In this document: piece after piece, positions 2,421 through 59,947 of the stretch | How positions within the stretch are numbered: position 1 is the first letter of the stretch | How the letters are laid out: each line of letters starts with the position of its first letter | DNA from: Fibrobacter sp. UWR3 | Lineage (GTDB): Bacteria > Fibrobacterota > Fibrobacteria > Fibrobacterales > Fibrobacteraceae | Assembly (NCBI RefSeq): GCF_900143055.1 | Contig: NZ_FRCW01000002.1 | Coordinates: forward strand, 310,001-374,000 | Reading direction: 5' to 3' | DNA: 64,000 bases | The notes under the pieces: generated by a model | Database searches by the model: none | The model's input: only the letters and a program-made list of their open reading frames with translations | Told to the model about the DNA's origin: nothing | Position numbers and translations under genes: made by a program

Positions 2421-3971
2421 ATGAATACAGTTCTCCTCTACGCAATGTTCGTAGTCTATGTCATCGCCGGCGTGGGATTGGTGATTTACGGGTTCAGTTG
2501 CTACTACAGCATATATCTATTCCTGAAGAATAGCCGCCATACTAGACTATCAGACCGCAAAAAAATTCTCAAGTTCTACCGCGAGCATTCTATCAATGAC
2601 CTCCCGCAGGTCACGACCCAGCTCCCCGTATTTAACGAGGCGAACTGCGTGGAACGTCTGCTCGACGCGGTCTGCGCTATCGATTACCCCAAGGACAAGC
2701 ACGAAATCCAGGTTTTGGACGACTCCACCGACGAATGCTACGAAGTGGCGAAGAAGAAGGTGGCCGAACTTGCCGCGAAGGGTTACGATATCAAGCTTAT
2801 CCACCGCACGAACCGCCAGGAATTCAAGGCCGGCGCCCTCAAGGAAGCCATGGCCGTCGCGAAGGGCGATTTCCTCGCGATTTTCGACGCCGACTTCGTA
2901 CCGGAGAAGGACTTCCTGTTAAAGACCATCCCCTACCTGGTGATGGACGACCAGATTGGCCTCGTTCAGGGCCGCTGGGGCCACCTGAACCGCACGGAAT
3001 CGGGCCTTACGCTCGCCCAGTCCATCGGTATCGACGGCCACTTCGTTATCGAGCAGTCCGCCCGTAGCTGGGGCAAGCTGTTCATGAACTTCAACGGTAC
3101 TGCAGGCGTGTGGCGCAAGCAGGCCATCTACGGCGGTGGCGGCTGGGAAGGCGACACCCTGACCGAAGACATGGACCTCTCCTACCGCAGCCAGCTCGCC
3201 GGATGGAAGATGAAGTTCGTGTTCGACGTGATTGTGCCGGCCGAACTCCCGAACGATATCAACGCCTACAAGGCACAGCAGTTCCGCTGGGCCCGCGGTT
3301 CCATCCAGACGGCCATCAAGATTTTGCCACGCGTGTGGAAGGCGAAGGTCCCGCTCCGCATCAAGATCGGCGCGTTCCTGCACACCACGCACTACTCGAT
3401 TCACCCCTGCATGCTGTTTACCGCCCTCTGCGCCTGGCCGCTCCTCGCGTTCTTCGAACCGGTCGCGCACTTGCCCAGCTGGGCATACACCGTCGGTTTT
3501 AGTTTCATTTTCCTCGCCGCAATCGCACCTTCCGTTCTTTACTTCGTTGCACAGCGCTGCTCGGGCTACACCGGCTGGAAAATTCGCATGCTCAGCCTCC
3601 CCATCTTGATGGCGCTTGGCGTGGGCATCGCCGTGAACAACACGCGTGCCGTGTTCGGTGCCGTGACCGGCGTGAAGGGCAGCTTTGTCCGCACCCCGAA
3701 GAGCGGCGGATCCAAGAAGAAGGCGAAGAGCCACTACGCACAAAAGTTCCCCTGGATGGCTGTCCTCGAACTCGGCGTGGGCGTGTACTGCATCTTCGGT
3801 CTTCTGGAATACATCGGCGCACAGAAGTTCATTATCGGACCGTTCCTCGCACTCTACGCGGTGGGCTTCCTCTCCGTGGGCGTGCTCAGCTTCATGCACT
3901 TTATCGGAAACATTATCGAAGTGCACAAGGCCCGCAAGGAACACGGCAACGTCGAAGAGCAGGAATCGTAA
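2421..3971 (+). CDS. Cellulose-synthase-like family 2 glycosyltransferase, membrane-bound
   Basis: 516 residues. An N-terminal membrane helix (~5-30) precedes a GT-A domain: TQLPVFNE, LDDSTDE, IFDADFVPE (the DxD that binds the sugar-nucleotide metal), a TEDMDL acceptor-side motif and QQFRWARGS, the QxxRW motif of processive synthases. Four or five membrane helices follow from about residue 325. This order is that of bacterial cellulose-synthase-like and glucomannan-synthase-like enzymes; the catalytic domain is cytosolic and the helices form the channel. No PilZ domain is attached and no BcsB or BcsC partner is nearby, so the product is not cellulose with certainty. A strong terminator follows. 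Confidence 0.85.
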   Translation: MNTVLLYAMFVVYVIAGVGLVIYGFSCYYSIYLFLKNSRHTRLSDRKKILKFYREHSINDLPQVTTQLPVFNEANCVERLLDAVCAIDYPKDKHEIQVLDDSTDECYEVAKKKVAELAAKGYDIKLIHRTNRQEFKAGALKEAMAVAKGDFLAIFDADFVPEKDFLLKTIPYLVMDDQIGLVQGRWGHLNRTESGLTLAQSIGIDGHFVIEQSARSWGKLFMNFNGTAGVWRKQAIYGGGGWEGDTLTEDMDLSYRSQLAGWKMKFVFDVIVPAELPNDINAYKAQQFRWARGSIQTAIKILPRVWKAKVPLRIKIGAFLHTTHYSIHPCMLFTALCAWPLLAFFEPVAHLPSWAYTVGFSFIFLAAIAPSVLYFVAQRCSGYTGWKIRMLSLPILMALGVGIAVNNTRAVFGAVTGVKGSFVRTPKSGGSKKKAKSHYAQKFPWMAVLELGVGVYCIFGLLEYIGAQKFIIGPFLALYAVGFLSVGVLSFMHFIGNIIEVHKARKEHGNVEEQES

Positions 3972-3975
3972 TCCG

Positions 3976-4185
3976 CTACAAACGATTTGCATCAGGGCAT
4001 CCGCGAAGTTCGCGGATGCTTTTTTGCATGGTATGGATATATTCAGTCGAGCGGGAATCGTAGGCGGCAAGGATGTGCACGTATTCGCAGTGAAACATGC
4101 CGTAGAGCCCGAGCGCAGACGAAACAAGGATGCCCGCGACCGCGAGCGCCACCATGAGTTCCATTAGCGTGAAGCCTTTTTGCAT
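3976..4185 (-). CDS. Short prepilin-like protein (pseudopilin), last gene of the secretin operon
   Basis: 69 residues from ATG 4185. MQKGFTLMELMVALAVAGIL is a classic class III prepilin start: short positive leader, cleavage after Gly4 before Phe, Glu at +5, then a hydrophobic helix. After processing by prepilin peptidase it would be a 65-residue helix-plus-tail, much smaller than normal pseudopilins (about 130-200). The annotated longer frame adds 16 residues without support. It overlaps the preceding prepilin by 22 bases, and its last codons form the hairpin of the opposing terminator, so the C-terminus may be constrained by RNA structure. Confidence 0.75.
   Translation of the reverse strand: MQKGFTLMELMVALAVAGILVSSALGLYGMFHCEYVHILAAYDSRSTEYIHTMQKSIRELRGCPDANRL
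3997..4025 (+). terminator. Intrinsic terminator of the GT2 gene, inside the convergent prepilin CDS
   Basis: GCATCCGCGA (3997-4006) pairs perfectly with TCGCGGATGC (4010-4019) around AGT, followed by six T. It lies 25 bases after the GT2 stop and within the last 17 codons of the minus-strand prepilin. Confidence 0.88.
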
Positions 4186-4688
4186 CGGGTGAGCCTCCTG
4201 AAAGTATAGTCGGGCGTGCGGATTTCGAGCCACTGGAGCGATGTGGCGGGAACGGGGGTGATGGTTATTGCGGGGGAATCGTTTGTCGCGAGTTGATTGT
4301 TTATTTCGGGGGGATCGTTTATTGCGGGGTGGCCGCTTATTGCGGGGTTGCCGTTTATTGCGGGCGGAGTGTTTATTGCGGGCGGGTTGCGGGTTAGGGA
4401 TGCGCGGCGGGTATAGACGGTGTCGGCGCAGGGCGGGAGAGAAACTGCAAGGGAATCGATGTACGCGGCTGCAACAAGCGCAGAATCCGAGCGGGAGAAC
4501 TCGAGGGCAGAGATGCGCCGGAACGCCCCCAGGTACAGCGAGAGGGAGGCCGCCCCTGCGGCAAGAACCGCAAGCGCGACGAGGACCTCGAGCAAAGTAA
4601 AGGCTTTTCGTTTATCGCAGGCGAGATGTTTATCACAAGGTGCGAGTCGCTTATCGCTGGAGGCAAGATGTTTATCGCTAGTAATCAC
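4164..4688 (-). CDS. Prepilin-like protein with repeat-derived leader and C-terminal repeat region
   Basis: 174 residues, GTG start at 4688 overlapping the previous stop by four bases (GTGA). KRKA/FTLLEVLVALAVLAAG at ~26-45 is a type IV prepilin motif with Glu5, but the cleavage residue is Ala instead of Gly and the leader is about 29 residues. The leader is built of near-copies of SDKHLA / SDKRLA / CDKHLA. Residues ~105-150 are a second repeat, units like PPAIN, NPAIS, HPAIN. Both come from short DNA repeats containing GCRATAAAC. The middle part carries a normal pseudopilin helix. Function inferred: minor pseudopilin of the adjacent secretin system. Confidence 0.72.
   Translation of the reverse strand: MITSDKHLASSDKRLAPCDKHLACDKRKAFTLLEVLVALAVLAAGAASLSLYLGAFRRISALEFSRSDSALVAAAYIDSLAVSLPPCADTVYTRRASLTRNPPAINTPPAINGNPAISGHPAINDPPEINNQLATNDSPAITITPVPATSLQWLEIRTPDYTFRRLTRCKKASR
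4262..4392 (-). repeat. Short repeats GCAATAAAC coding for PAIN-like units
   Basis: About eight irregular units containing GCAATAAAC or close variants, 15-18 bases apart, in frame with the prepilin (PAIN, PAIS, PEIN units). Related GCGATAAAC units lie in the leader at 4604-4688. Confidence 0.75.
4622..4638. repeat. 17-base dispersed repeat, copy 1 (in prepilin leader)
   Basis: CGAGATGTTTATCACAA on the plus strand, identical to 10039-10055. Confidence 0.8.
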
Positions 4689-5704
4689 TGCGCGGACCTC
4701 CGGAATACGACTTTCTCACCGTCGAAAAACGCAGGCAGAAGGGCATGGGACGAGTCGCGCACGGTTCCGGGAAACGCAGCACCCGCGAGGCTGTCGGGTT
4801 CATCGAGTTCAACCATGCCGCCCGGCGCAGCGAGCACGCCCGCGAAGGAGGCTTGATTCAGGAAGGCGATGCGCCCGCTGCCCGACCCGAGCGATACGGC
4901 TACGCTCGGGAAATCTGCCCGCACACGGTCGCGGATGGTCACAACATCTCGGGCATAGAGCAGGCCCGAAAACCTGAAGGAGGAATGCACCTCCAGCGAC
5001 GCGCCGGAATAGACCTCGAGATGCGCGACCGTGACTTCGCCACCGAGGGTTACTTCGCCCTCGGAATAGATGCGCAGCGTGTCGAAACGCGCCCGCCCCT
5101 TCACGTTCACGGAGCCATCGACCAGGAAGGCGGCGGAAGGGACTCGTGTATCGAAATCGAGCGTGAGGTCGCCATCGCTCACATGCAACGCGATTGCGGT
5201 ATCGAGCCGGAAGATGCGGCGATTGCCGGACATAACGCGGAAGCCCCTTGCCGTCGTGATGGACTCGCGAAGGGCGGCACGGTATTGCGTCATGGCGGTG
5301 TACCAGTCATCAAACCGCAGGCGGGAATATCGCGTGCCGTAACTTGCGCAGAAACTGCGAGAAGAATTTGCAGACAAAGAAAGCGAAATATTTGCGGGTA
5401 TAGAATACGAAATATTTGCAGGTACAAGATGCCCGCCGACCAGTAGCGGGGCACAGATGCGACCCCACGGGCCAACAGCCTCGGCACTTACCGGCGGGAG
5501 CCCCGCAAAGAACCCGTCAGGGAATCCCGATAGGTTCGCAATAATTGCCGATTCCGCATCGTAGACCGCCTGCACTTCGCGCGCGTAGTGGTTTGTGGAA
5601 CGCAGCACGCCTCCCGGCACCCGCAAAAGGCAACCGAACAGGATGGTGAGTGAAAGGATAAGCGTGAGGACAAATCCCAAAACGAAACCGCGCTTACATT
5701 CCAT
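4685..5704 (-). CDS. GspK/PilX-like minor pseudopilin with a C-terminal beta-rich domain
   Basis: 339 residues from ATG 5704, which overlaps the GspC-like gene by 11 bases; the longer frame back to 5992 lies inside that gene. MECKRGFVLGFVLTLILSL is prepilin-like with KRG/F, but position +5 is Phe rather than Glu, as in GspK and PilX-type tip pilins. YAREVQAVYDAESAI is the conserved helix end of PilX-like proteins. From about residue 200 short repeated strands (FDTLRIYSEGEVTLGGEV and similar) suggest a bactofilin-like or parallel beta-helix fold. Probably caps the pseudopilus. Followed by two prepilins with overlapping ends. Confidence 0.68.
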   Translation of the reverse strand: MECKRGFVLGFVLTLILSLTILFGCLLRVPGGVLRSTNHYAREVQAVYDAESAIIANLSGFPDGFFAGLPPVSAEAVGPWGRICAPLLVGGHLVPANISYSIPANISLSLSANSSRSFCASYGTRYSRLRFDDWYTAMTQYRAALRESITTARGFRVMSGNRRIFRLDTAIALHVSDGDLTLDFDTRVPSAAFLVDGSVNVKGRARFDTLRIYSEGEVTLGGEVTVAHLEVYSGASLEVHSSFRFSGLLYARDVVTIRDRVRADFPSVAVSLGSGSGRIAFLNQASFAGVLAAPGGMVELDEPDSLAGAAFPGTVRDSSHALLPAFFDGEKVVFRRSAQ

Positions 5705-6854
5705 TGCGGACCTCCCGAATTTCACCCCCGCAGGCAAGCTGCACACGTTCCTTCCCGATAGAAACGACTTCGAAGGGCCCGAGGGAATCCCCGAGGCTGT
5801 ACCAGGAAGGCAATGCGCCCGCAATCGATGCGCTGAAAATGCGACCCGCCACGACGCCGTGCAAGCGAACAGGAGGGAGGTCGCAACCAGGCGCCGGTTT
5901 GTGAGTGCCGCGGGCATCGCCGATTTCTGATACACCGCGAACGTCGCTCTTAAACGGCGCGCGCTCTTCGTTAAACTGCGCATAGCCCTCATTAAACTGC
6001 GCGACCGCCTCTTCGCTCGGGCGCATCTCCGGCGGAGGCGTGAGCGCCGGAAGTTCCGCGCCTGCAGGCGATATTACTTCGGGTGACGCGCCCGACAAAT
6101 CGCCCGAAAGAACGTTCCACCAGGTACTAACCGCAAGCAACAGCGCCACGCCCGCAGCAAGCGCAGGCCATACTAACTTCCCGCGGGTTCGTACCCGCCA
6201 GAACGGATCGCTCCCCGCACGCCTTAACCAGCGGAGCCTTTCCGGTTCCTGCACGTCCCCTACGTCCATAAACGCGCAGTACCATTTTTCCGCCCGCGAA
6301 AACAGGTCGTCGTTCCGGAGAAAAACGTCAAACCGCCCGAGACGTTCCTGCACGCTTTCTTTATTATTATACTGAGGTTCCTCGCTCCAGTGGCAAAGCC
6401 TTCCTTCAAAGAAGACGAGGATGTACAGCCAGCCGTTGTCCAGAAATGCGAAGCGGCAGTTTCCGCAACTTTCGCGCAGGCTGCACCCGCAATAAGCGCT
6501 TTCGCACGAATCTTCCTCGCGCATTAGTTTGTCTGCACACCCGTAGAGCATCGCCGTCCGGGGCAAGATGCGCTCGCCTCGCCCGCGATATTTCGCAGGT
6601 TCCTTTTCTGATTTGCGCTCGTTCGCAAGCATCACCAGGTAGCGGTGCTTTCGCCCGTCCGTGCTGTTGAAGCTCACCATTTCCCGGAACACGGGTTGCG
6701 CCGTGCAAGAGCTTTCTGAACACGACTGCGCGACACTCGGGAAATCCTCGGCAAAGCGCCTGCGGAGCGTCAGCGGGTCCAGCACGCCATCGAAGCCTGT
6801 CACCACCTCCCAGGTCCAGAGCCGCGCCTCCACAAAAGCCGTTCTCGCCCACAT
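5694..6854 (-). CDS. GspC-like inner-membrane protein with Cys-rich cytoplasmic domain
   Basis: 386 residues from ATG 6854, which shares one base with the secretin stop (TGATG). Residues ~1-245 are cytoplasmic and unusually rich in Cys (a cluster CESAYCGCSLRESCGNC near 130-150), with stretches such as WLYILVFFEGRLCHWSEE that recall GspL. One membrane helix (~250-270) is followed by a Pro-rich linker and a C-terminal domain LHGVVAGRIFSASI ... LGDSLGPFEVVSIGKERVQL, the homology region of GspC/PilP that contacts the secretin. I infer an inner-membrane partner of the adjacent secretin; a GspL-GspC fusion is possible. Confidence 0.62.
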   Translation of the reverse strand: MWARTAFVEARLWTWEVVTGFDGVLDPLTLRRRFAEDFPSVAQSCSESSCTAQPVFREMVSFNSTDGRKHRYLVMLANERKSEKEPAKYRGRGERILPRTAMLYGCADKLMREEDSCESAYCGCSLRESCGNCRFAFLDNGWLYILVFFEGRLCHWSEEPQYNNKESVQERLGRFDVFLRNDDLFSRAEKWYCAFMDVGDVQEPERLRWLRRAGSDPFWRVRTRGKLVWPALAAGVALLLAVSTWWNVLSGDLSGASPEVISPAGAELPALTPPPEMRPSEEAVAQFNEGYAQFNEERAPFKSDVRGVSEIGDARGTHKPAPGCDLPPVRLHGVVAGRIFSASIAGALPSWYSLGDSLGPFEVVSIGKERVQLACGGEIREVRNGM

Positions 6855-8662
6855 CAGAATTCCACCTCGGGCGTGATGAAGATGGCCAGTTCGCTTTCGT
6901 CTTCGACCTCGCTCACGTAACTGAAAAGCCTGCCGATAAGCGGGATGCTCCCGAGGAACGGAACCGCCGTGCGCACCTCCGACTTGCCCTTCCGTACGAG
7001 GCCGCCCAGGCAAAGCGTCTCTCCGTTTTTCAACGTGACGGTCGTCTTCAGGTTGCGCGTGCTGATATCGCGCGGGCCATCGCCGCTCGAGCGCCCCGCC
7101 GTCTTGATTTCGGGCGAAATGTTCAGCGTGATGCTCCCGCCCTGCGTAACTGTCGGGGTGATTTCCAGCGAGATTCCGTCATTGAACGAGCGGTAATCCG
7201 TAATCGGGTAGCCGTCGGCGGATACCTGGCTCACCAGGTAATAGACCGTATTCGTCACGTTCAGTTCCGCCTTGTTGCCGTTAAGCGTCGTGAGCCGCGG
7301 GCGCGCAAGGACTTCGGCCCTGTTGTTCTCTTCCATCGCGGAAAGTTCCATCTCGAAACGCGCCGGCAGAATCCCGATTTTCCCGAACGCGCCCGAAGCG
7401 GAAACGTCCTTCCCCATAAAGTCCCAGAACCCGCGCACGCCCAGGTCGTTCTCGCCCGTCTTGCGCGTAGAGCCGCTGTGGAGCCCGATTTCGAAATTGC
7501 GCCCGCGCTTGAGTTCCACAATCACGCACGAGATGGTCACCTGCATGGCGGGCCTGTCCAGGTTTTCGAGGATGGCGACAGCCTCCGCAATTTCTGCGGG
7601 CGAGCCGCGCAGCATCAGCGCGTTCTGTTCCTTCACTTCCGACACGACAAGCCCCGAACCCGGCAACAGCTTGGAAAGTTGCGGCACGAGAGATTCCGGC
7701 GTCGTCGCCTTCAGCGGGTAAAGTTCCGTTCGCGAGAGCACGTTTTTCGCCCCGCGTTCTGTTACAAACAAAGTATTCGAATCGAGCGCATAGGTGTAGC
7801 GGCTCCCGCGAAAGAGCGACTGCAGGAGATTCGCAAGCGGTTCGCGTTCAAAACGCATCTGCAAGTTCTCGCGCACGTCTCCGTACAGCACCAGATTGAG
7901 GTTCGATACCCGCGAAAGCTCCTTGAGGAACATGTCCAGCGGGGTGCCGTCCAGTTCTACCGTATAGAGAGAGTCGTCCTGGGCTATATCCGGCACGGAG
8001 TTTGCGCCCGCGGGCGAAGCGCCGTTCGCACCAGCGCCGTTCGCACCCGCGCCACCCGCGGGCAAATTGCGTGTGCGTTCCACACGGAAGCAGTCAGCAT
8101 CGCGCCTCACGCGGAAACCGTGCGATTCGAGCAGCACCCGGAGCGCTGTCCCGGGCGGTACGGATTCCAGCCGGCCGCTCACAGGGCCCGCGACATCGGG
8201 CGAAGCTACCACGTTCAGGCCCGTATTCGCGGAAAAATCCCGGATAAACTCGCGAACGTCGCGCTCCCGCACATCGAGCGACACGAGCGAATCTGCTACC
8301 CGAAAAAAATTCTCGCCACGTTCCAGGCGCTTGCGGATATGGAAAACCGTCCCGTCGCGAATGAGTTCTAGCCCGAGGGTAGAACACAACGACGTGAGCC
8401 CCTCCAGCAGCCCGACGCCATCGAGGTGGAACGTGACACGCGCCTCCGCACCGACGTCCACAAGCACGGGCACCCCGTAGGCAAGCGACACCGAGCGGGC
8501 GACATCCTGCAGGCTCGCATCCACGAAATCGAGCGAAACCTTGTCGGGCACGTCGCGCTCAGCGCACCACGCGCGCCCCAGGCAAAGAAGTAAAATAATA
8601 ACGAGGCAAGCTACCGCGGGCATAAAGCATCCGCGACTTTCCTCCGCATTTTTGCGAGGCAC
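6854..8662 (-). CDS. Secretin of a type II / type IV-like system
   Basis: 602 residues, GTG start at 8662 with AGGGGA eight bases upstream; an internal ATG at 8623 has a poorly placed site. Signal sequence (about residues 14-34, LVIILLLCLGRAWC). Three N-domain repeats follow (VSLDFVDASLQDVARSVS; LVSLDVRERDVREFIRDFS; VELDGTPLDMFLKELSR), an Ala/Gly linker at ~205-220, then the secretin domain with VLARPRLTTLNG, SLEITPTV and the C-terminal VPFLGSIPLIGRLFS. Forms the outer-membrane ring. First gene of a five-gene overlapping operon. No S-domain is obvious, and no pilotin gene is adjacent. Confidence 0.9.
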   Translation of the reverse strand: MPRKNAEESRGCFMPAVACLVIILLLCLGRAWCAERDVPDKVSLDFVDASLQDVARSVSLAYGVPVLVDVGAEARVTFHLDGVGLLEGLTSLCSTLGLELIRDGTVFHIRKRLERGENFFRVADSLVSLDVRERDVREFIRDFSANTGLNVVASPDVAGPVSGRLESVPPGTALRVLLESHGFRVRRDADCFRVERTRNLPAGGAGANGAGANGASPAGANSVPDIAQDDSLYTVELDGTPLDMFLKELSRVSNLNLVLYGDVRENLQMRFEREPLANLLQSLFRGSRYTYALDSNTLFVTERGAKNVLSRTELYPLKATTPESLVPQLSKLLPGSGLVVSEVKEQNALMLRGSPAEIAEAVAILENLDRPAMQVTISCVIVELKRGRNFEIGLHSGSTRKTGENDLGVRGFWDFMGKDVSASGAFGKIGILPARFEMELSAMEENNRAEVLARPRLTTLNGNKAELNVTNTVYYLVSQVSADGYPITDYRSFNDGISLEITPTVTQGGSITLNISPEIKTAGRSSGDGPRDISTRNLKTTVTLKNGETLCLGGLVRKGKSEVRTAVPFLGSIPLIGRLFSYVSEVEDESELAIFITPEVEF

Positions 8663-53994: not shown

Positions 53995-55605
53995 TTAGTT
54001 CCAGTCGTCCTGGACGTCGTTTGCAGCAGGTTCCGGTGCGGCGGGAGTTTCCGCAGCGGGCTCGGATGCCGGAGCAGGTTCTGCGGCAGGGGCAGGTTCC
54101 TGTGCAGGAGCCGGACTGGTTGCTGAGCCTGTCGAAGCATCAGCGGCAGGAGCGCTCTGAGCAGCGGGCTGTGCTGCAGGAGCAGCCTGTTGTGCAGGCT
54201 GTGCAGCCGGAGCCGGCTGTTCCACCTTCTGCATCTGCGGAGCGCCCTGTTCAGCCACTTCGGCGGAAGGTTCGGAAAGTTCCACGTTGCCGATGTAATT
54301 GCGGATAATGCGCGGGGTCACGAAGATCACGAGGTCCTTCTTGACCACGGAATGACGCGTATACTTGAAGAGGTTGCCGAAGAACGGAATGTCCTTGAGG
54401 AACGGAATGCCGCTCTCGGATTCCTGGGTCTCGTTACGGGTCAGGCCGCCGATAATCACGGTCTCGCCGTCAGCCACCACGACCTTCGTCTTGGCTTCCT
54501 GCGTACTGATCACGATTTCGCCCTTGGAGTCGTAATCGTAGGAGTTGTTTTCCGGGTGCAGGTCAAGCAAGATGCGGTTGTCGCCCGAAACGTGCGGGGT
54601 AACCGTCAGCTTGATACCGGTTTCGACGAGCTGCGTAGAAGATTCACCGCTATCGTCAATCACGCGGATAGAAACCTTGTCACCCATGAACACCTGGGCT
54701 TCGGTATTGTCGAGCGTAGAGACCTGCGGGCTCGCGAGCACTTCGGTAGAAGCGTCACCCATCAGGCTCGACACGGCGAGCTTCAGGTTGTTGTCGAACA
54801 GGCTCGTGGTAATAGTCGTTGCGGCACCGCTAACAGCAGGCGTTGCACCGTTGTTCGGGAAGGACGTAACCATGGCAGCGCCACGGCTAGACCCAGCCTG
54901 GCTTCCGTAAGTACCGTTTGCCGCACCCGGAGTCATAGAGACGTTGTTGCCGAGCATCGCGCTCCAGTCCACACCGAGTTCGCGGGCGCGCTGGCTGTTC
55001 ACCACCACGAGCTTCGCAGTAATCATGATCTGGAGGGTTTCCACGTCAAGTTCGGTAAGGGCGTTTTCCATCTGCTCAATCTTAGAATCGGTATCGTACA
55101 CGATAATGGAGTTCGTGCGTTCCACGACGGTGATACGGCCACGACCGCTCTTCATGCTTTCGAGCACCTTCACGAGTTCGTCGGCCTTCGCGTGGTGAAT
55201 CTGGAAGTTCTTGCGTACGAGCGGAGCAGTATCTTCCTGCTGCTTTTCCTCGTCGGCAATCTTCTTCTGCTTGGCCTGGTAAGTACTCTGGCGCTGAACC
55301 ACGATGTACTTGTCCTGAATAACCCAGGTGAGGTCATTGATTTCGCAGATAATGTCGAGCGTTTCCTGCCAGGTTTTCTTGGTGACCTTGATGCTCATCT
55401 TGCCCTTCACATCGGGAGCAAGCAAGATATCGACACCCGCAACCACAGAAACAGAGCGGAACACGGCACTGAAGTCAGTGTCCACGAACGAGAAGTCGTA
55501 CAGCTTCTTGTTGGGTTCCACGGAACCCGACGCGGGGGCAGCACAGACCGAGGAGAGTCCCACTACCAGGGACAGGACCATGAGTATTTTAATCAGCTTT
55601 TTCAC
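53995..55605 (-). CDS. pilQ: Type IV pilus secretin PilQ
   Basis: 536 residues, short for PilQ because the N-terminal AMIN domains are absent. Signal peptide MKKLIKILMVLSLVVGLSSVCA, an STN/N0-like domain (FSFVDTDFSAVFRSVSVVAG), an N1 domain and the secretin core (VLASPQVSTLDNTEAQVFMG, IPFLKDIPFFGNLFKYTRH, FVTPRIIRN). The last ~100 residues are Ala/Pro/Gln-rich and contain an in-frame CTTCGACAGGCTCAGC element (read as ASTGSATS). Fourth downstream of pilM; overlaps the PilP gene by four bases. Confidence 0.93.
   Translation of the reverse strand: MKKLIKILMVLSLVVGLSSVCAAPASGSVEPNKKLYDFSFVDTDFSAVFRSVSVVAGVDILLAPDVKGKMSIKVTKKTWQETLDIICEINDLTWVIQDKYIVVQRQSTYQAKQKKIADEEKQQEDTAPLVRKNFQIHHAKADELVKVLESMKSGRGRITVVERTNSIIVYDTDSKIEQMENALTELDVETLQIMITAKLVVVNSQRARELGVDWSAMLGNNVSMTPGAANGTYGSQAGSSRGAAMVTSFPNNGATPAVSGAATTITTSLFDNNLKLAVSSLMGDASTEVLASPQVSTLDNTEAQVFMGDKVSIRVIDDSGESSTQLVETGIKLTVTPHVSGDNRILLDLHPENNSYDYDSKGEIVISTQEAKTKVVVADGETVIIGGLTRNETQESESGIPFLKDIPFFGNLFKYTRHSVVKKDLVIFVTPRIIRNYIGNVELSEPSAEVAEQGAPQMQKVEQPAPAAQPAQQAAPAAQPAAQSAPAADASTGSATSPAPAQEPAPAAEPAPASEPAAETPAAPEPAANDVQDDWN
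54122..54138. repeat. GCTTCGACAGGCTCAGC element inside pilQ tail
   Basis: On the minus strand GCTTCGACAGGCTCAGC, close to the CTTCGAC...CTCAGG element in the terminator at 11457-11504 and a widely known intergenic repeat motif. Here it is translated. Confidence 0.6.
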
Positions 55606-57566
55606 TTTTGACCCCCAAATTTATCGGGAAGACCCATAGAGTAGCGACGGCTCACGCCAAATTCTTGAATAAGGAAGAGCACGTCTGTTTGTGTGATTTT
55701 AAGAACTTTTCCGTTGAGAATCTTGTCGCCTTCCTTAAGCGTGTAGGATATGGAAGGATTCTTGGATTCCACGAGGAGCGCCATCGGGACATCGGATTCC
55801 CAGATAATACCGACAAGTTCGACCTGGTCGATGTTGATGCCTTCTTCCACGAGGCCCTTGATTTCGACAAACGGGTCACGACGGCCGAAGGAACTGTAGG
55901 TCACGCGGTCATCGTAGAGGCCGTCGAGCTGGCTGCCAGCAATCTCGCCATTTTCGGAAAGAATCTCGCCCCTTTCCTTGTCGACCTGCTTGAGGCGCTC
56001 CGTCTGCACGGCGGAAAGTTCATCCATGTAACTGACTGCGCGCTTGTTCACGAAGCCGATGTGGCTACCGAACTGCACCTTGCAATAGAGGCCCGAAACA
56101 TCGAGGCTCACGAGGCGGTCACCGAAGGTGAGGCGCTTGAGCACCTGCGAGTTGTCGTTGGGCGCGGCAAAAAGTTCAATTTCGTCGGCGACGACAATGA
56201 GTTCACGTACCACAGGGCGCAGGTGGAATGTCTGCGAACCCGAGACGAGCTTCTTGCTTTCCTTGTCGTGCTTGCTCACGAAAGTTTCAAAGGAGGGCTT
56301 TTCTTCGGCCGACTTCATCCAGTCGCGCACGAAGATTCCATCCGGATGGGCGCTCCAGAAGAGGAAGCCATCCTTCTTGATAGTCGTTTCCCGGACCTGC
56401 AAAATAAGTGCACCTTCCTGCACCACGATAACGGGCTTCGCGTTCTGCTGCAACTGCACCTTGAGGCCGTTCGCACCCCAGGTCACGTGCTTCACGAGCG
56501 TACCCGCACCAATCTTGAACACCGGCGACTTTTGCGGGCCGGCAAGCCCGATAACAATCGTACCCGCCTTGTCCGGACCAGTCACGTTCTGCAGTTCAAT
56601 CGGGGTGGTCGCCACCAGGCGGAACTGTTCCATGCCGGAACCCACGAGCACCGTCATTTCCTTCAGGTTCGGGAGGAGTGCAGAAATCTTGCCGCCTTCC
56701 TTGATAGCCTTGTCGAGGTTCTTCTGTTCCTCGGCAATGCGCTTCTCTTCTTCCTTCGCGGCCTTTTCTGCAGCCTTCTTCTCTTCGAGGGCGCGCTTCT
56801 CGGCTTCTTTCCTTTCGGCAGCCTCGCGCTTGCGTTCCTCGAGAGCAGCCTTTTCCGCAGCCTTCTTTTCTTCGAGAGCACGCTTTTCAGCCGCCTTCTT
56901 CTCTTCGGCTAAACGCTTCTTTTCTTCGGCAGCAGCCTTTTCTGCGGCCTTCTTGTCGAGAGCGGCCTGCTTTTCGGCAGCCTTCTTCTCTTCGGCAAGG
57001 CGCTTCTTTTCTTCAAGGGCAGCCTTCTCGGCGGCCTTCTTTTCTTCGGCGGCACGCTTCTTCTCTTCGAGGGCGGCCTTTTCAGCAGCCTTCTTCTCTT
57101 CGGCAGCGGCCTTCTCGGCAGCCTTCTTGCGGTCAGCAAAGAGCTTCGAGAGCGTCCAGGCCTTCCCGCCCTTGCCGGCGAGTTTCAGCATAAAGTCCGA
57201 CTTGTTGAGAGCAATCTCGTTCTTGTCAGATTTAATCGCAGAACCGACAATCAAGTCAATCTTCAAGAAATCCGACCCGCGGAAGGGTTCCTTGTAGACC
57301 TTCATGGACTTGACCCATTCCGAGGAGGGGTCAATTTCAAACGCACCCATGCCAAGAGCGAACTCACTCGTCGAAAAACCGAGGGTAAGCTTGTGCGACT
57401 TGGCATCGTACTTCTGGAAGAATGAGGGCAAATCCTTGTCCGAGGCAAACTTGAACGTGACGGCGCAATTGCTCTTATCGCAACCGAAACTCACATCCTT
57501 AATCTGAGCAGCGTTCACGGCCACCGCGACGAACAGGAACAAAGTAATTAATTTGTTCATCATCAT
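55602..57566 (-). CDS. pilP: PilP-like pilus protein with AMIN-like domain, long charged helix and SH3-like domain
   Basis: 654 residues, ATG 57566 with AAGG upstream, overlapping pilO. Signal peptide MMMNKLITLFLFVAVAVNA. Residues ~20-130 look AMIN-like (peptidoglycan/pilus-associated). About 145-290 is a long Lys/Ala/Glu helix of units such as EKKAAEKAALEEKKR, like TolA. After a beta-rich part, ~460-510 resembles SH3b (ELFAAPNDNSQVLKRLTFGDR). The C-terminal ~100 residues match PilP: RRDPFVEIKGLVEEG ... QVELVGIIWESDVPMALLV ... YTLKEGDKILNGKVLKI. PilP normally is a ~180-residue lipoprotein; no lipobox is seen here. Confidence 0.75.
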   Translation of the reverse strand: MMMNKLITLFLFVAVAVNAAQIKDVSFGCDKSNCAVTFKFASDKDLPSFFQKYDAKSHKLTLGFSTSEFALGMGAFEIDPSSEWVKSMKVYKEPFRGSDFLKIDLIVGSAIKSDKNEIALNKSDFMLKLAGKGGKAWTLSKLFADRKKAAEKAAAEEKKAAEKAALEEKKRAAEEKKAAEKAALEEKKRLAEEKKAAEKQAALDKKAAEKAAAEEKKRLAEEKKAAEKRALEEKKAAEKAALEERKREAAERKEAEKRALEEKKAAEKAAKEEEKRIAEEQKNLDKAIKEGGKISALLPNLKEMTVLVGSGMEQFRLVATTPIELQNVTGPDKAGTIVIGLAGPQKSPVFKIGAGTLVKHVTWGANGLKVQLQQNAKPVIVVQEGALILQVRETTIKKDGFLFWSAHPDGIFVRDWMKSAEEKPSFETFVSKHDKESKKLVSGSQTFHLRPVVRELIVVADEIELFAAPNDNSQVLKRLTFGDRLVSLDVSGLYCKVQFGSHIGFVNKRAVSYMDELSAVQTERLKQVDKERGEILSENGEIAGSQLDGLYDDRVTYSSFGRRDPFVEIKGLVEEGINIDQVELVGIIWESDVPMALLVESKNPSISYTLKEGDKILNGKVLKITQTDVLFLIQEFGVSRRYSMGLPDKFGGQK

Positions 57567-58162
57567 GGGCCAACCTTCTTGGATGTATAGGTGGTCAGGT
57601 TAAACGACACCGACACCGTAATGGGAGTCCAGCCGTGGGTTTCCGCCTTCTGGAGTTCGGCGGCAATTCCCGAGTAGCGGTTCAACCTGAGGTTCGTAAT
57701 CGCCGTCGGGTAATTGAAGTTCGCAATTTCAGCAAACAGGTAGCCCAGCATGTGGTAACCCGAGTTGACCGCGATGGAGTAGCGGTTCTCGATGTAGTGT
57801 TCCTTCTGGGAAGAACCTTCCGGATTGAACTTCTGGATCTGCACGCCCGAACTGCGTAGCACGGCATACAAATCCTGCAGGCGCAGCGGAACCTTTTCCT
57901 CTTCGGGGAACATTTCCTTCAGCTTTTCGAAATCCTTCTCGGCCTGCACCAGCTGCAGTTCAAGCTCCGCAATGCGGTGCTTCTTCGCGTTAATCTTGTC
58001 GAGTTCGGACTGTGCAGTGCTGAGTTCAGATTCTAGTTGCTGCTTCCTTTGTACATACGGGTTATACACGTAGTCGTATGTGTAGTAGATAAGACCCACA
58101 ATAAGGAGACATACAACAATCAGGTATATGTTCTTCTTGTCTTTAAAATCGAAATTACCCAT
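57563..58162 (-). CDS. pilO: Type IV pilus assembly protein PilO
   Basis: 199 residues. One membrane helix (~12-32, IYLIVVCLLIVGLIYYTYDY), a coiled coil (QRKQQLESELSTAQSELDKI) and a ferredoxin-like periplasmic domain (SIAVNSGYHMLGYLFAEIANF). Partners PilN in the inner-membrane alignment complex. Starts one base from pilN stop and ends over pilP start. Confidence 0.9.
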   Translation of the reverse strand: MGNFDFKDKKNIYLIVVCLLIVGLIYYTYDYVYNPYVQRKQQLESELSTAQSELDKINAKKHRIAELELQLVQAEKDFEKLKEMFPEEEKVPLRLQDLYAVLRSSGVQIQKFNPEGSSQKEHYIENRYSIAVNSGYHMLGYLFAEIANFNYPTAITNLRLNRYSGIAAELQKAETHGWTPITVSVSFNLTTYTSKKVGP

Positions 58163-58163
58163 G

Positions 58164-58799
58164 CTAGCCCTCCCCCAGGTCCTGCTTCAGGACTATCTTG
58201 ATGGTAAAGCTATACGCTTCCTCGCCATCGACCTTGGTGGTAGCGATAGTCAGGAGCGACACCTTTTCAACGCTTACCTGCTTCTCGAGCTTGACCATGT
58301 ACTCGGCCACTTCCGAGAAGTCAAACGTCATGCCCTTCATCTCGAGGTTGTCTTCCGACACCTGGTTGAGGCTCGTGAGCCACATGTTGGGCGGCAGCAC
58401 CGACGACACGTTTTCGAACAGCACCACCCAGCGACGCTTGCTCACCTGGATGCTCTTGAGCGCATTAATCTTGGTATTGACAATCGCCTGTTTCTGTTCG
58501 AGGTCGCCAATCTTCGTGAGCAATGGACGTTCACGTTCGACTTCTTCCTTCACGCGAGTCACATCGTTCTCAAGGCTCATGATTGTTTCGTCAATCAAAA
58601 TGTTCGCGTACATGAACCCGACAATAGCGACAATCAATGCCAGCGTAGGCCAAACAATGCGGCGGTCAGTAATCCACGAAAGATCCTTCTTGACCTTGCG
58701 GTACTCCGGAGGCAAGAGGTTAATCGAAATGCATATCGAACGCTTTGCGGCGTTCTTCGCTTTCGTCTTCGTCTTAGTCTTTGTTTTCTTTTCTGCCAT
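58164..58799 (-). CDS. pilN: Type IV pilus assembly protein PilN
   Basis: 211 residues. A Lys/Thr-rich start (KKTKTKTKTKAKN), the conserved INLLPPEYR motif that docks into PilM, one membrane helix (~50-68) and coiled coil plus a ferredoxin-like domain. The Lys/Thr repeat at the N-terminus is longer than usual. Overlaps the pilM stop (TAATG). Confidence 0.9.
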   Translation of the reverse strand: MAEKKTKTKTKTKAKNAAKRSICISINLLPPEYRKVKKDLSWITDRRIVWPTLALIVAIVGFMYANILIDETIMSLENDVTRVKEEVERERPLLTKIGDLEQKQAIVNTKINALKSIQVSKRRWVVLFENVSSVLPPNMWLTSLNQVSEDNLEMKGMTFDFSEVAEYMVKLEKQVSVEKVSLLTIATTKVDGEEAYSFTIKIVLKQDLGEG

Positions 58800-59947
58800 T
58801 AGTCAAACTTCCTCATAGCAAGCCCAAGCGCTGGCGCAAGGATGTTGGATAAAGCGAGGGACACGCCCGATTCGCCCACCACGCTCGCATCACATTCAAC
58901 GTAACGGAACGGGTTCACGGTGTCGGTCTCTATGCCGGAACGTTCGGCGATATATTCCTTCAAGCCCTTGATGGAGGCGCCACCGCCGCCGAGCAAGATC
59001 TTGTTCAGCGGTTCGGAATCTTCCGAAGAAGAGTAGTAGCGGATACCGAATTCCACCTGGGCCATAATGTCTTCAAAGGCAAGCTTCAAGGCCTCTTCCA
59101 CTTCGGCTTCGGCAAACCCGTCCACGATGCCCAGATCGCCCGTCTCGAAAATCTCGTGGCACTTGGCGGCATCGACACCGAGCGTCACGCCGAGCTTTGC
59201 AATAATCATGTCAATCGAGCCACCGGTCATGGCACGCATGGAGTGGAACTTGCCCTGCTGGATGAACCCGATGCTCATCTTCTTTTCGCCGATGTTGATG
59301 ACGGCGGTAGTCTGCTTGAGGTCTTCTTCGGAAGCGGTCGCCGTGTAGGCGTTCAAAAGGCCGAAGATATCGACGTCCATCGCGGTGAGCTTGAGCCCCT
59401 TCACGGTAAAGAACTGGGCCCAGGAATCAAGAAGCGCGTTTTTCGCGGCAACGACGTTCGCCTTGACTTCCTCGCCTTCGCGGGATTCAATCTCGTAGTC
59501 AATCACGTTGTCCTGGTCATCGAAGGGCGGACGGGACTGCGCGGTCTGGAGAATAATCGCCGACTCGTTGCCGTTCTTCGGCACCTTCACGCTAATCCTG
59601 TCGACCAGCACGCCGCCGGCGCCAGCACCGCAGTTCACGCATGCGACAATATCGGTATTGGCATCGCGGGTATGGCGCATCATCATCTTGGTGAGCGCCT
59701 CGCTCAAAAGTTCGTAGCCGTCCTTTTCCTTCTTGCCGTCGGGACCTGTCGTAGGTTCGCCCTCGCGACGTTGGATTTCGCCGTTAATGACGGAGCCTTC
59801 CGGAACGGGTTCCGTATCAATCTCGACGACAACATGGCCACCGCGACTGTTGTGGTAAACCTTCACGTACTTGATGCTGTAATGGCCAACATCGATGCCG
59901 ATAGTCTCGCGTTCACCGCGAATTCGAGCGAGCAAATCTAGTGCCAA
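58799..59947 (-). CDS. pilM: Type IV pilus assembly protein PilM
   Basis: 382 residues, TTG start at 59947 with GGAG seven bases upstream. Actin-like ATPase fold: TIGIDVGHYSIKYVKV at the start, AVINIGEKKMSIGFI and LLGGGGASIKGLKEYIAERSG later. Cytoplasmic partner of PilN, linking the inner-membrane complex. First gene of the pil operon, with a good promoter at 59980-60008. Confidence 0.93.
   Translation of the reverse strand: MALDLLARIRGERETIGIDVGHYSIKYVKVYHNSRGGHVVVEIDTEPVPEGSVINGEIQRREGEPTTGPDGKKEKDGYELLSEALTKMMMRHTRDANTDIVACVNCGAGAGGVLVDRISVKVPKNGNESAIILQTAQSRPPFDDQDNVIDYEIESREGEEVKANVVAAKNALLDSWAQFFTVKGLKLTAMDVDIFGLLNAYTATASEEDLKQTTAVINIGEKKMSIGFIQQGKFHSMRAMTGGSIDMIIAKLGVTLGVDAAKCHEIFETGDLGIVDGFAEAEVEEALKLAFEDIMAQVEFGIRYYSSSEDSEPLNKILLGGGGASIKGLKEYIAERSGIETDTVNPFRYVECDASVVGESGVSLALSNILAPALGLAMRKFD

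Follow-up and report, generated by a model that had tools for sequence, protein, structure and literature searches.

A T2SS-like secretin and pseudopilin operon of Fibrobacter that may share the platform protein of the type IV pilus

The platform protein GspF/PilC is generally regarded as an indispensable, system-specific core part of type II secretion systems (T2SS) and type IV pili. Outside the phylum, a putative T2SS was described in Cytophaga hutchinsonii (PMC5553014) and placed close to the type IVa pilus in work on the T2SS-T4P relationship (PMC6668835). This bacterium of a neighbouring phylum resembles Fibrobacter in being a contact-dependent cellulose degrader with a divergent T2SS-like cluster, but its cluster encodes its own T2S-F and T2S-G, whereas the Fibrobacter system has neither. 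For Fibrobacter itself, a passage of the S85 genome paper refers in passing, without a gene list, to the apparent presence of type II secretion (PMC3079729), and a survey of the phylum assigned two PilQ and one PilC to the Fibrobacteraceae, a second system not being recognised (PMC4704652); one of these two PilQ is probably a secretin of the type described here. Such a secretin may also be among the entries of an RNA-seq study of F. succinogenes S85, part of which carries an annotation resembling Pfam's description of the secretin family (PMC4668043). No report of a GspF-less T2SS was found in the literature searched, which does not by itself prove that none exists.

The window analysed here is a stretch of 64,000 nucleotides from Fibrobacter sp. 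UWR3, whose genome (3.55 Mb in 20 contigs, estimated 100% complete) encodes exactly two secretins. One is the PilQ of a type IV pilus, and the other belongs to a five-gene cluster (8662-3976) about 45 kb away, in agreement with an earlier note on this DNA, which had placed five overlapping genes here, distinct from the pilM-Q locus, and had counted at least two secretins. All five genes are read from the minus strand, their frames overlap or abut and, as start and stop codons overlap throughout, they likely form one operon. The locus holds no gspE, gspF or gspG and no separate gspL or gspM gene, and a PHROGs search gave no useful match.

6854-8662, minus strand: gene 1, secretin (GspD-like), 602 aa (Pfam, NCBIfam, hhalign, tree, conservation)
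5694-6854, minus strand: gene 2, fusion of a PilM/GspL-like domain with a GspC HR domain, 386 aa (hhalign, Foldseek)
4685-5704, minus strand: gene 3, GspK-like tip pseudopilin, 339 aa (sequence, structure model, hhalign)
4164-4688, minus strand: gene 4, GspI-like minor prepilin, 174 aa (N_methyl E 5e-7, operon position)
3976-4185, minus strand: gene 5, minor prepilin in the GspJ position, 69 aa (N_methyl E 2.5e-8)
2421-3971, plus strand: convergent membrane glycosyltransferase (GT2, CelA/PgaC-like), a conserved neighbour (Pfam/NCBIfam)
53995-59947, minus strand: pilQ-P-O-N-M of the separate type IV pilus

With the T2SS (gsp/xcp/pul; reference, E. coli K-12 gspC-M), the system shares a GspD-type secretin with an N0 domain (gene 1), a GspL-type domain and, at the C terminus of gene 2, a GspC-type HR domain, a dedicated GspE-type ATPase, and the minor pseudopilins K, I and J, of which K is recognised by its missing Glu at +5, its operon position and its homologues, and J is very short. 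On the contrary, it has neither its own GspF platform nor the major pseudopilin GspG, no GspH was found, its ATPase is unlinked (contig 4), its secretin has three N0-like modules, and GspL and GspM are not separate, the N-terminal part of L being fused to C and M undetected. Since GspF and GspG are missing, it should not be filed as a canonical T2SS, and the relation of its L, M and C elements to those of E. coli is one of fold and position, sequence homology being undetectable. With the type IVa pilus (PilM-Q, PilB, PilC) it shares the PilM-like fold, the PilN- and PilO-like domains present in the L and M of its relatives, minor pilins that initiate the filament and probably the same PilC. 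It differs from this pilus in its separate secretin devoid of AMIN, its separate assembly ATPase, the fusion of a GspC-type HR domain to a PilM-like domain and the lack of a linked retraction ATPase; a PilM-N-O-P-Q locus with an AMIN-containing PilQ lies elsewhere in the window.

The reading of gene 1 as a secretin is borne out by Pfam (Secretin, PF00263, E 9e-43, plus Secretin_N, PF03958, and GspD N0, PF21305). The protein comprises a signal peptide, three tandem STN/N0-like modules (about 37-106, 119-192 and 230-305, related to one another by hhalign), one Secretin_N domain and a C-terminal secretin barrel; Pfam gave no AMIN match, and the score with the NCBIfam GspD equivalog (170.6) is below the cut-off of 351.35. 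Three such modules ahead of the N1-type domain depart from the usual single N0. A contig scan reached five close relatives; the nearest ones bearing names are Fibrobacter sp. UBA7003, whose secretin is 97% identical, and MAGs of Fibrobacter succinogenes.

Gene 2 has no Pfam match and a marginal NCBIfam match at its C terminus (GspC_delta, E 0.048). Residues about 18-219 correspond to a predicted cytoplasmic PilM/GspL-like domain of actin fold, followed by a TM helix (about 229-249), a linker and a predicted periplasmic HR domain of GspC type (about 293-385). With hhalign, residues 18-219 aligned with the N-terminal half of the L protein (E 2e-35), and residues 293-363 aligned with the HR domain at the C terminus of the MC protein (E 1.4e-13) as well as with that of C from far relatives (E 4e-6). 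Through intermediates, this L is in turn tied to that of the far relatives (E 9.5e-10 and 2.7e-10); in one far relative, L has a PilN domain, M has a PilO domain and C gives a weak T2SSC match. When a structure model of low confidence (mean pLDDT 49) was searched with Foldseek against all PDB chains, the top matches were to Pseudomonas PilM (E 6e-4, prob 0.99), and the C-terminal part matched the HR domain of ETEC GspC (prob 1.00, E 0.057); the alignments underlying the model were shallow because sequences came from the window and five close-relative loci only. Direct hhalign comparison with E. coli GspL and GspC and with PilM and PilP of the window gave no match, homology to L and C being reached only through intermediates and fold search. 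Together, these profile and fold matches indicate that gene 2 is an L-C fusion from which M (no GspM segment was detected by hhalign) and the PilN-like part of L were lost. The protein had at first been taken for a GspC-like one with a Cys-rich cytoplasmic part, and GspL had been declared absent. The HR domain agrees with the GspC-like character, and the statement on GspL was wrong, a GspL/PilM-like domain being fused to GspC within gene 2. The Cys-rich stretch is a clade-specific insertion (the conserved cysteines are only C154, C324 and C375), and a functional role for it was rejected.

Gene 3 has a prepilin-type signal with a G-1/F+1 site; it lacks Glu at +5, the pattern that a tip pseudopilin of GspK type should show. 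Its C-terminal domain (about 155-311) is modelled as beta-solenoid-like; Pfam gave DUF7305 and Bactofilin, both sub-threshold, and Foldseek gave no significant match for the model. Profiles of the Fibrobacter K aligned with those of other genera (E 1e-34) and of far relatives (E 3.5e-9), in support of the GspK/PilX-like protein with a beta domain initially proposed. Genes 4 and 5, seen as two small prepilins, are confirmed as such by their N_methyl matches. The leader and tail of gene 4 are repetitive, and the I protein of far relatives aligns with E. coli GspI (E 3e-7). In the window genome the -1 residue of gene 4 (KRKA/FTLLE) is Ala, whereas close relatives have Gly, and its cleavage may hence be less efficient. 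Gene 5, at only 69 aa against about 170 aa for its counterparts in distant relatives, is almost without a globular domain, which makes a complete K-I-J tip uncertain.

The secretin was searched for in 168 genomes of the phylum, 80 of them Fibrobacter, and loci were compared to trace the origin of the cluster. In distant members (families f7 and f9-f11), the secretin lies within an E-D-L-M-C-K-I-J operon, and family f4 shows the arrangement L-M-C-K-I-J-E-D. Within the family to which Fibrobacter belongs, other genera have D-L-(M+C in one gene)-K-I-J, E lying apart from the operon in all but G044, and Fibrobacter has D-gene 2-K-I-J. On these comparisons, the cluster derives by reduction from an operon of eight genes, gspE-D-L-M-C-K-I-J, which occurs throughout the phylum. 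About 15 of the 80 Fibrobacter genomes and a few of sister genera carry a third secretin in a second E-D-L-M-C-K-I-J operon, here called type B (L133, G057:C4; L134, G062:C1:638000-656000; L127, G129:C5; L126, G147:C51). Type B resembles the window system (type A) in gene order, in the absence of F and G and in occurring partly in the same genomes, but its L, M and C are unfused, its E is linked, and its secretin and ATPase form separate clades. Neither gspF nor gspG occurred in any of the phylum operons examined, and none of the loci examined in relatives within the phylum had the complete adjacent T2SS that would have spoken against a reduced system. Outside the phylum, the cluster of a Haliovirga plasmid secretin (full-length, 26% identity) includes GspF and GspG, so that both were likely lost within the phylum, a single outside example not settling the direction.

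The description of the cluster as a system without ATPase does not hold at the genome level. Six T2SSE-family matches were found: PilB, two PilT/PilU types, two divergent PilT-like proteins (contig 1) and a GspE-like protein of 408 aa encoded alone on contig 4, beside a convergent gene for a transglycosylase. In a maximum-likelihood tree, this lone ATPase, together with its orthologues, forms a clade with the E proteins of the phylum's operons (support 96/98), apart from PilB, E. coli GspE, HofB and the E of type B; this grouping is well supported, whereas long branches make the placement of PilB and of the E. coli proteins uncertain. These main groups recur in the secretin tree. Within the family, 79 genomes have both secretin and lone ATPase, 24 have neither and 8 are mismatched; among genomes at least 90% complete, the counts are 47, 12 and 1 (Fisher p 9e-12, ignoring phylogeny, the counts not being independent of kinship). 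The contig-4 ATPase thus appears, by sequence and co-occurrence, to be the dedicated GspE orthologue of the cluster's system, having left the operon. The one mismatch, G098, is 100% complete and has an intact five-gene cluster, but no lone GspE was found in it; G061, which is 89% complete and likely a close relative, resembles it in gene 2 and is likewise without the ATPase, and the two may represent a natural case of the machine minus its ATPase. As to the divergent PilT-like ATPases, their genes are paired at L031 6276-8905 (G000:C1), upstream of a gene for a patatin-like protein.

The search for gspE, gspF and gspG elsewhere in the genome was thus positive for the first and negative for the other two. 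The sole T2SSF protein is PilC (contig 3), there is one prepilin peptidase, and the GspG domain (PF08334) is absent, as it is from all but 3 of the 168 phylum genomes (2 above cut-off); the original statements that GspF and GspG are lacking therefore stand. Each Fibrobacter genome has exactly two T2SSF domain matches, that is one platform protein, except G120 (none) and G128 (three). G062 combines the pilus, a system of the window type and the second operon, yet has one PilC, and the same single-platform pattern is seen in G057, of a sister genus, whose second operon was examined in full. From these gene counts we infer that PilC is common to the type IV pilus and the cluster's machine. Of the system-bearing genomes from other families, about half have at least two platform genes, which could be dedicated, and sharing is therefore best supported within Fibrobacteraceae. 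The suggestion that motors are borrowed from type IV pili thus probably holds for platform and pilin, but not for the ATPase, which is the system's own.

The reading that we moderately favour is a T2SS-like pseudopilus machine with its own K-I-J tip, secretin and ATPase, and with a platform and a main pilin taken over from the type IV pilus. What was directly observed comprises the gene content, the homologies, the conservation, the co-occurrence and the single PilC. Following the known workings of T2SS and type IV pili, from which docking, sharing of PilC and pilin, assembly order and protein secretion are extrapolated, the K-I-J minor-pseudopilin complex (genes 3-5) would form the tip and prime a short filament acting through the secretin. 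Gene 2 would stand in for GspL, GspM and GspC in one protein, its PilM/GspL-like cytoplasmic domain docking the ATPase and its periplasmic HR domain binding the N0 modules of the secretin, while the lone GspE-type ATPase would drive assembly via gene 2 and PilC. As it has no GspF or GspG of its own, the machine would have to use PilC and the main pilin of the type IV pilus set, together with the sole prepilin peptidase.

A wider proposal, which we hold tentatively and at somewhat less than even credence, is that one PilC serves up to three secretin machines per cell (pilus, type A and type B), which would each keep a separate ATPase, secretin and tip, the T2SS-like ones being without own platform or major pseudopilin phylum-wide and L-M-C being compressed to one protein in Fibrobacter. 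A genus-wide GspF-less machine would make the pairing of a platform protein with ATPase, tip and secretin testable in the cultivable F. succinogenes, and the fused gene 2 would offer a natural minimal link between ATPase and secretin. Such a machine bears on protein transport to the surface in Fibrobacter, a key rumen cellulose degrader. The export of cellulases, an early suggestion, was not supported as the reason for conservation: GH9 counts do not track the system and sister genera without it retain 2-8 GH9 genes, so that having GH9 does not require the system, these counts being mute on its use by individual enzymes in genomes that have it.

Alternatively, the cluster could provide a true type IV pilus with another exit and tip and not be a secretion machine, the K-I-J set with its beta-solenoid K capping a surface pilus for fibre adhesion that would be built with ordinary pilins and PilC and would leave the cell by this second secretin. 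We consider this unlikely, although the lack of a GspG-type pilin in almost all of the phylum, the single and shared PilC, the large beta domain of K and the NCBIfam scores of gene 1, higher with the PilQ than with the GspD model and under the cut-off with both, are all consistent with it. However, the HR-type C domain, the L/M/C and K/I/J make-up and the absence of AMIN follow the T2SS, a dedicated GspE-type ATPase is maintained alongside PilB, and the extra-phylum relative lies within a full T2SS including F and G.

Cyanobacterial pseudopilin loci serve hormogonium polysaccharide. By analogy, the cluster might export polysaccharide or slime made by the neighbouring GT2 synthase, as the abutting position of the CelA/PgaC-like gene in the window and in related genera would suggest. 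This is quite improbable, since the GT2 gene is convergent and is kept in place in operon-less genera: about 68-80% identical across the family with or without the adjacent operon, it is not counted as part of the machine and was rejected as its fixed partner. Indeed, in g6, g9 and G150 (g11), the two small flanking genes and GT2 are intact and the operon is missing.

Such empty sites could also point to a functionless, decaying remnant of the ancestral operon, as could the stepwise loss of M, the fusion of L and C, the shrinking prepilins and the Ala at -1 of gene 4 in the window genome. Secretin and ATPase are both absent from genera g2, g4, g6 and g8 and part of g11, and g9 and g10 carry no more than the operon of type B. 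On the contrary, the secretin is present in 79 of the 80 Fibrobacter genomes (identity 56-97%), the exception, G120, being 69% complete and possessing the ATPase; genes 2-5 follow it at nearly every Fibrobacter locus examined (order rearranged in L114), dN/dS against three relatives is 0.11-0.35 for all five genes, denoting purifying selection, and the unlinked ATPase is retained or lost together with the secretin. By this conservation and dN/dS, the five-gene cluster is a maintained unit and a relic is rejected as highly improbable. The earlier note had asked whether the five genes are conserved together in Fibrobacter, as they are, and had named loss from most relatives as a refutation; essentially all Fibrobacter keep the cluster, although several sister genera lack it.

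Least probable of all, and barely credible, is a surface sensor in which gene 2 and the ATPase would report contact of the pilus tip, with no protein export; the predicted cytoplasmic location of the PilM/GspL-like domain and a tip complex without major pseudopilin would suit it, but the operon has no signalling domain or regulator and the Cys-rich stretch that hinted at a special cytoplasmic function is not conserved.

Among other pilin genes, L030 6146-14752 (G000:C11) encodes a prepilin of 482 aa and, after it, a protein of 2384 aa that begins in a PilX/GspK-like manner and may be a giant adhesin of the pilus tip.
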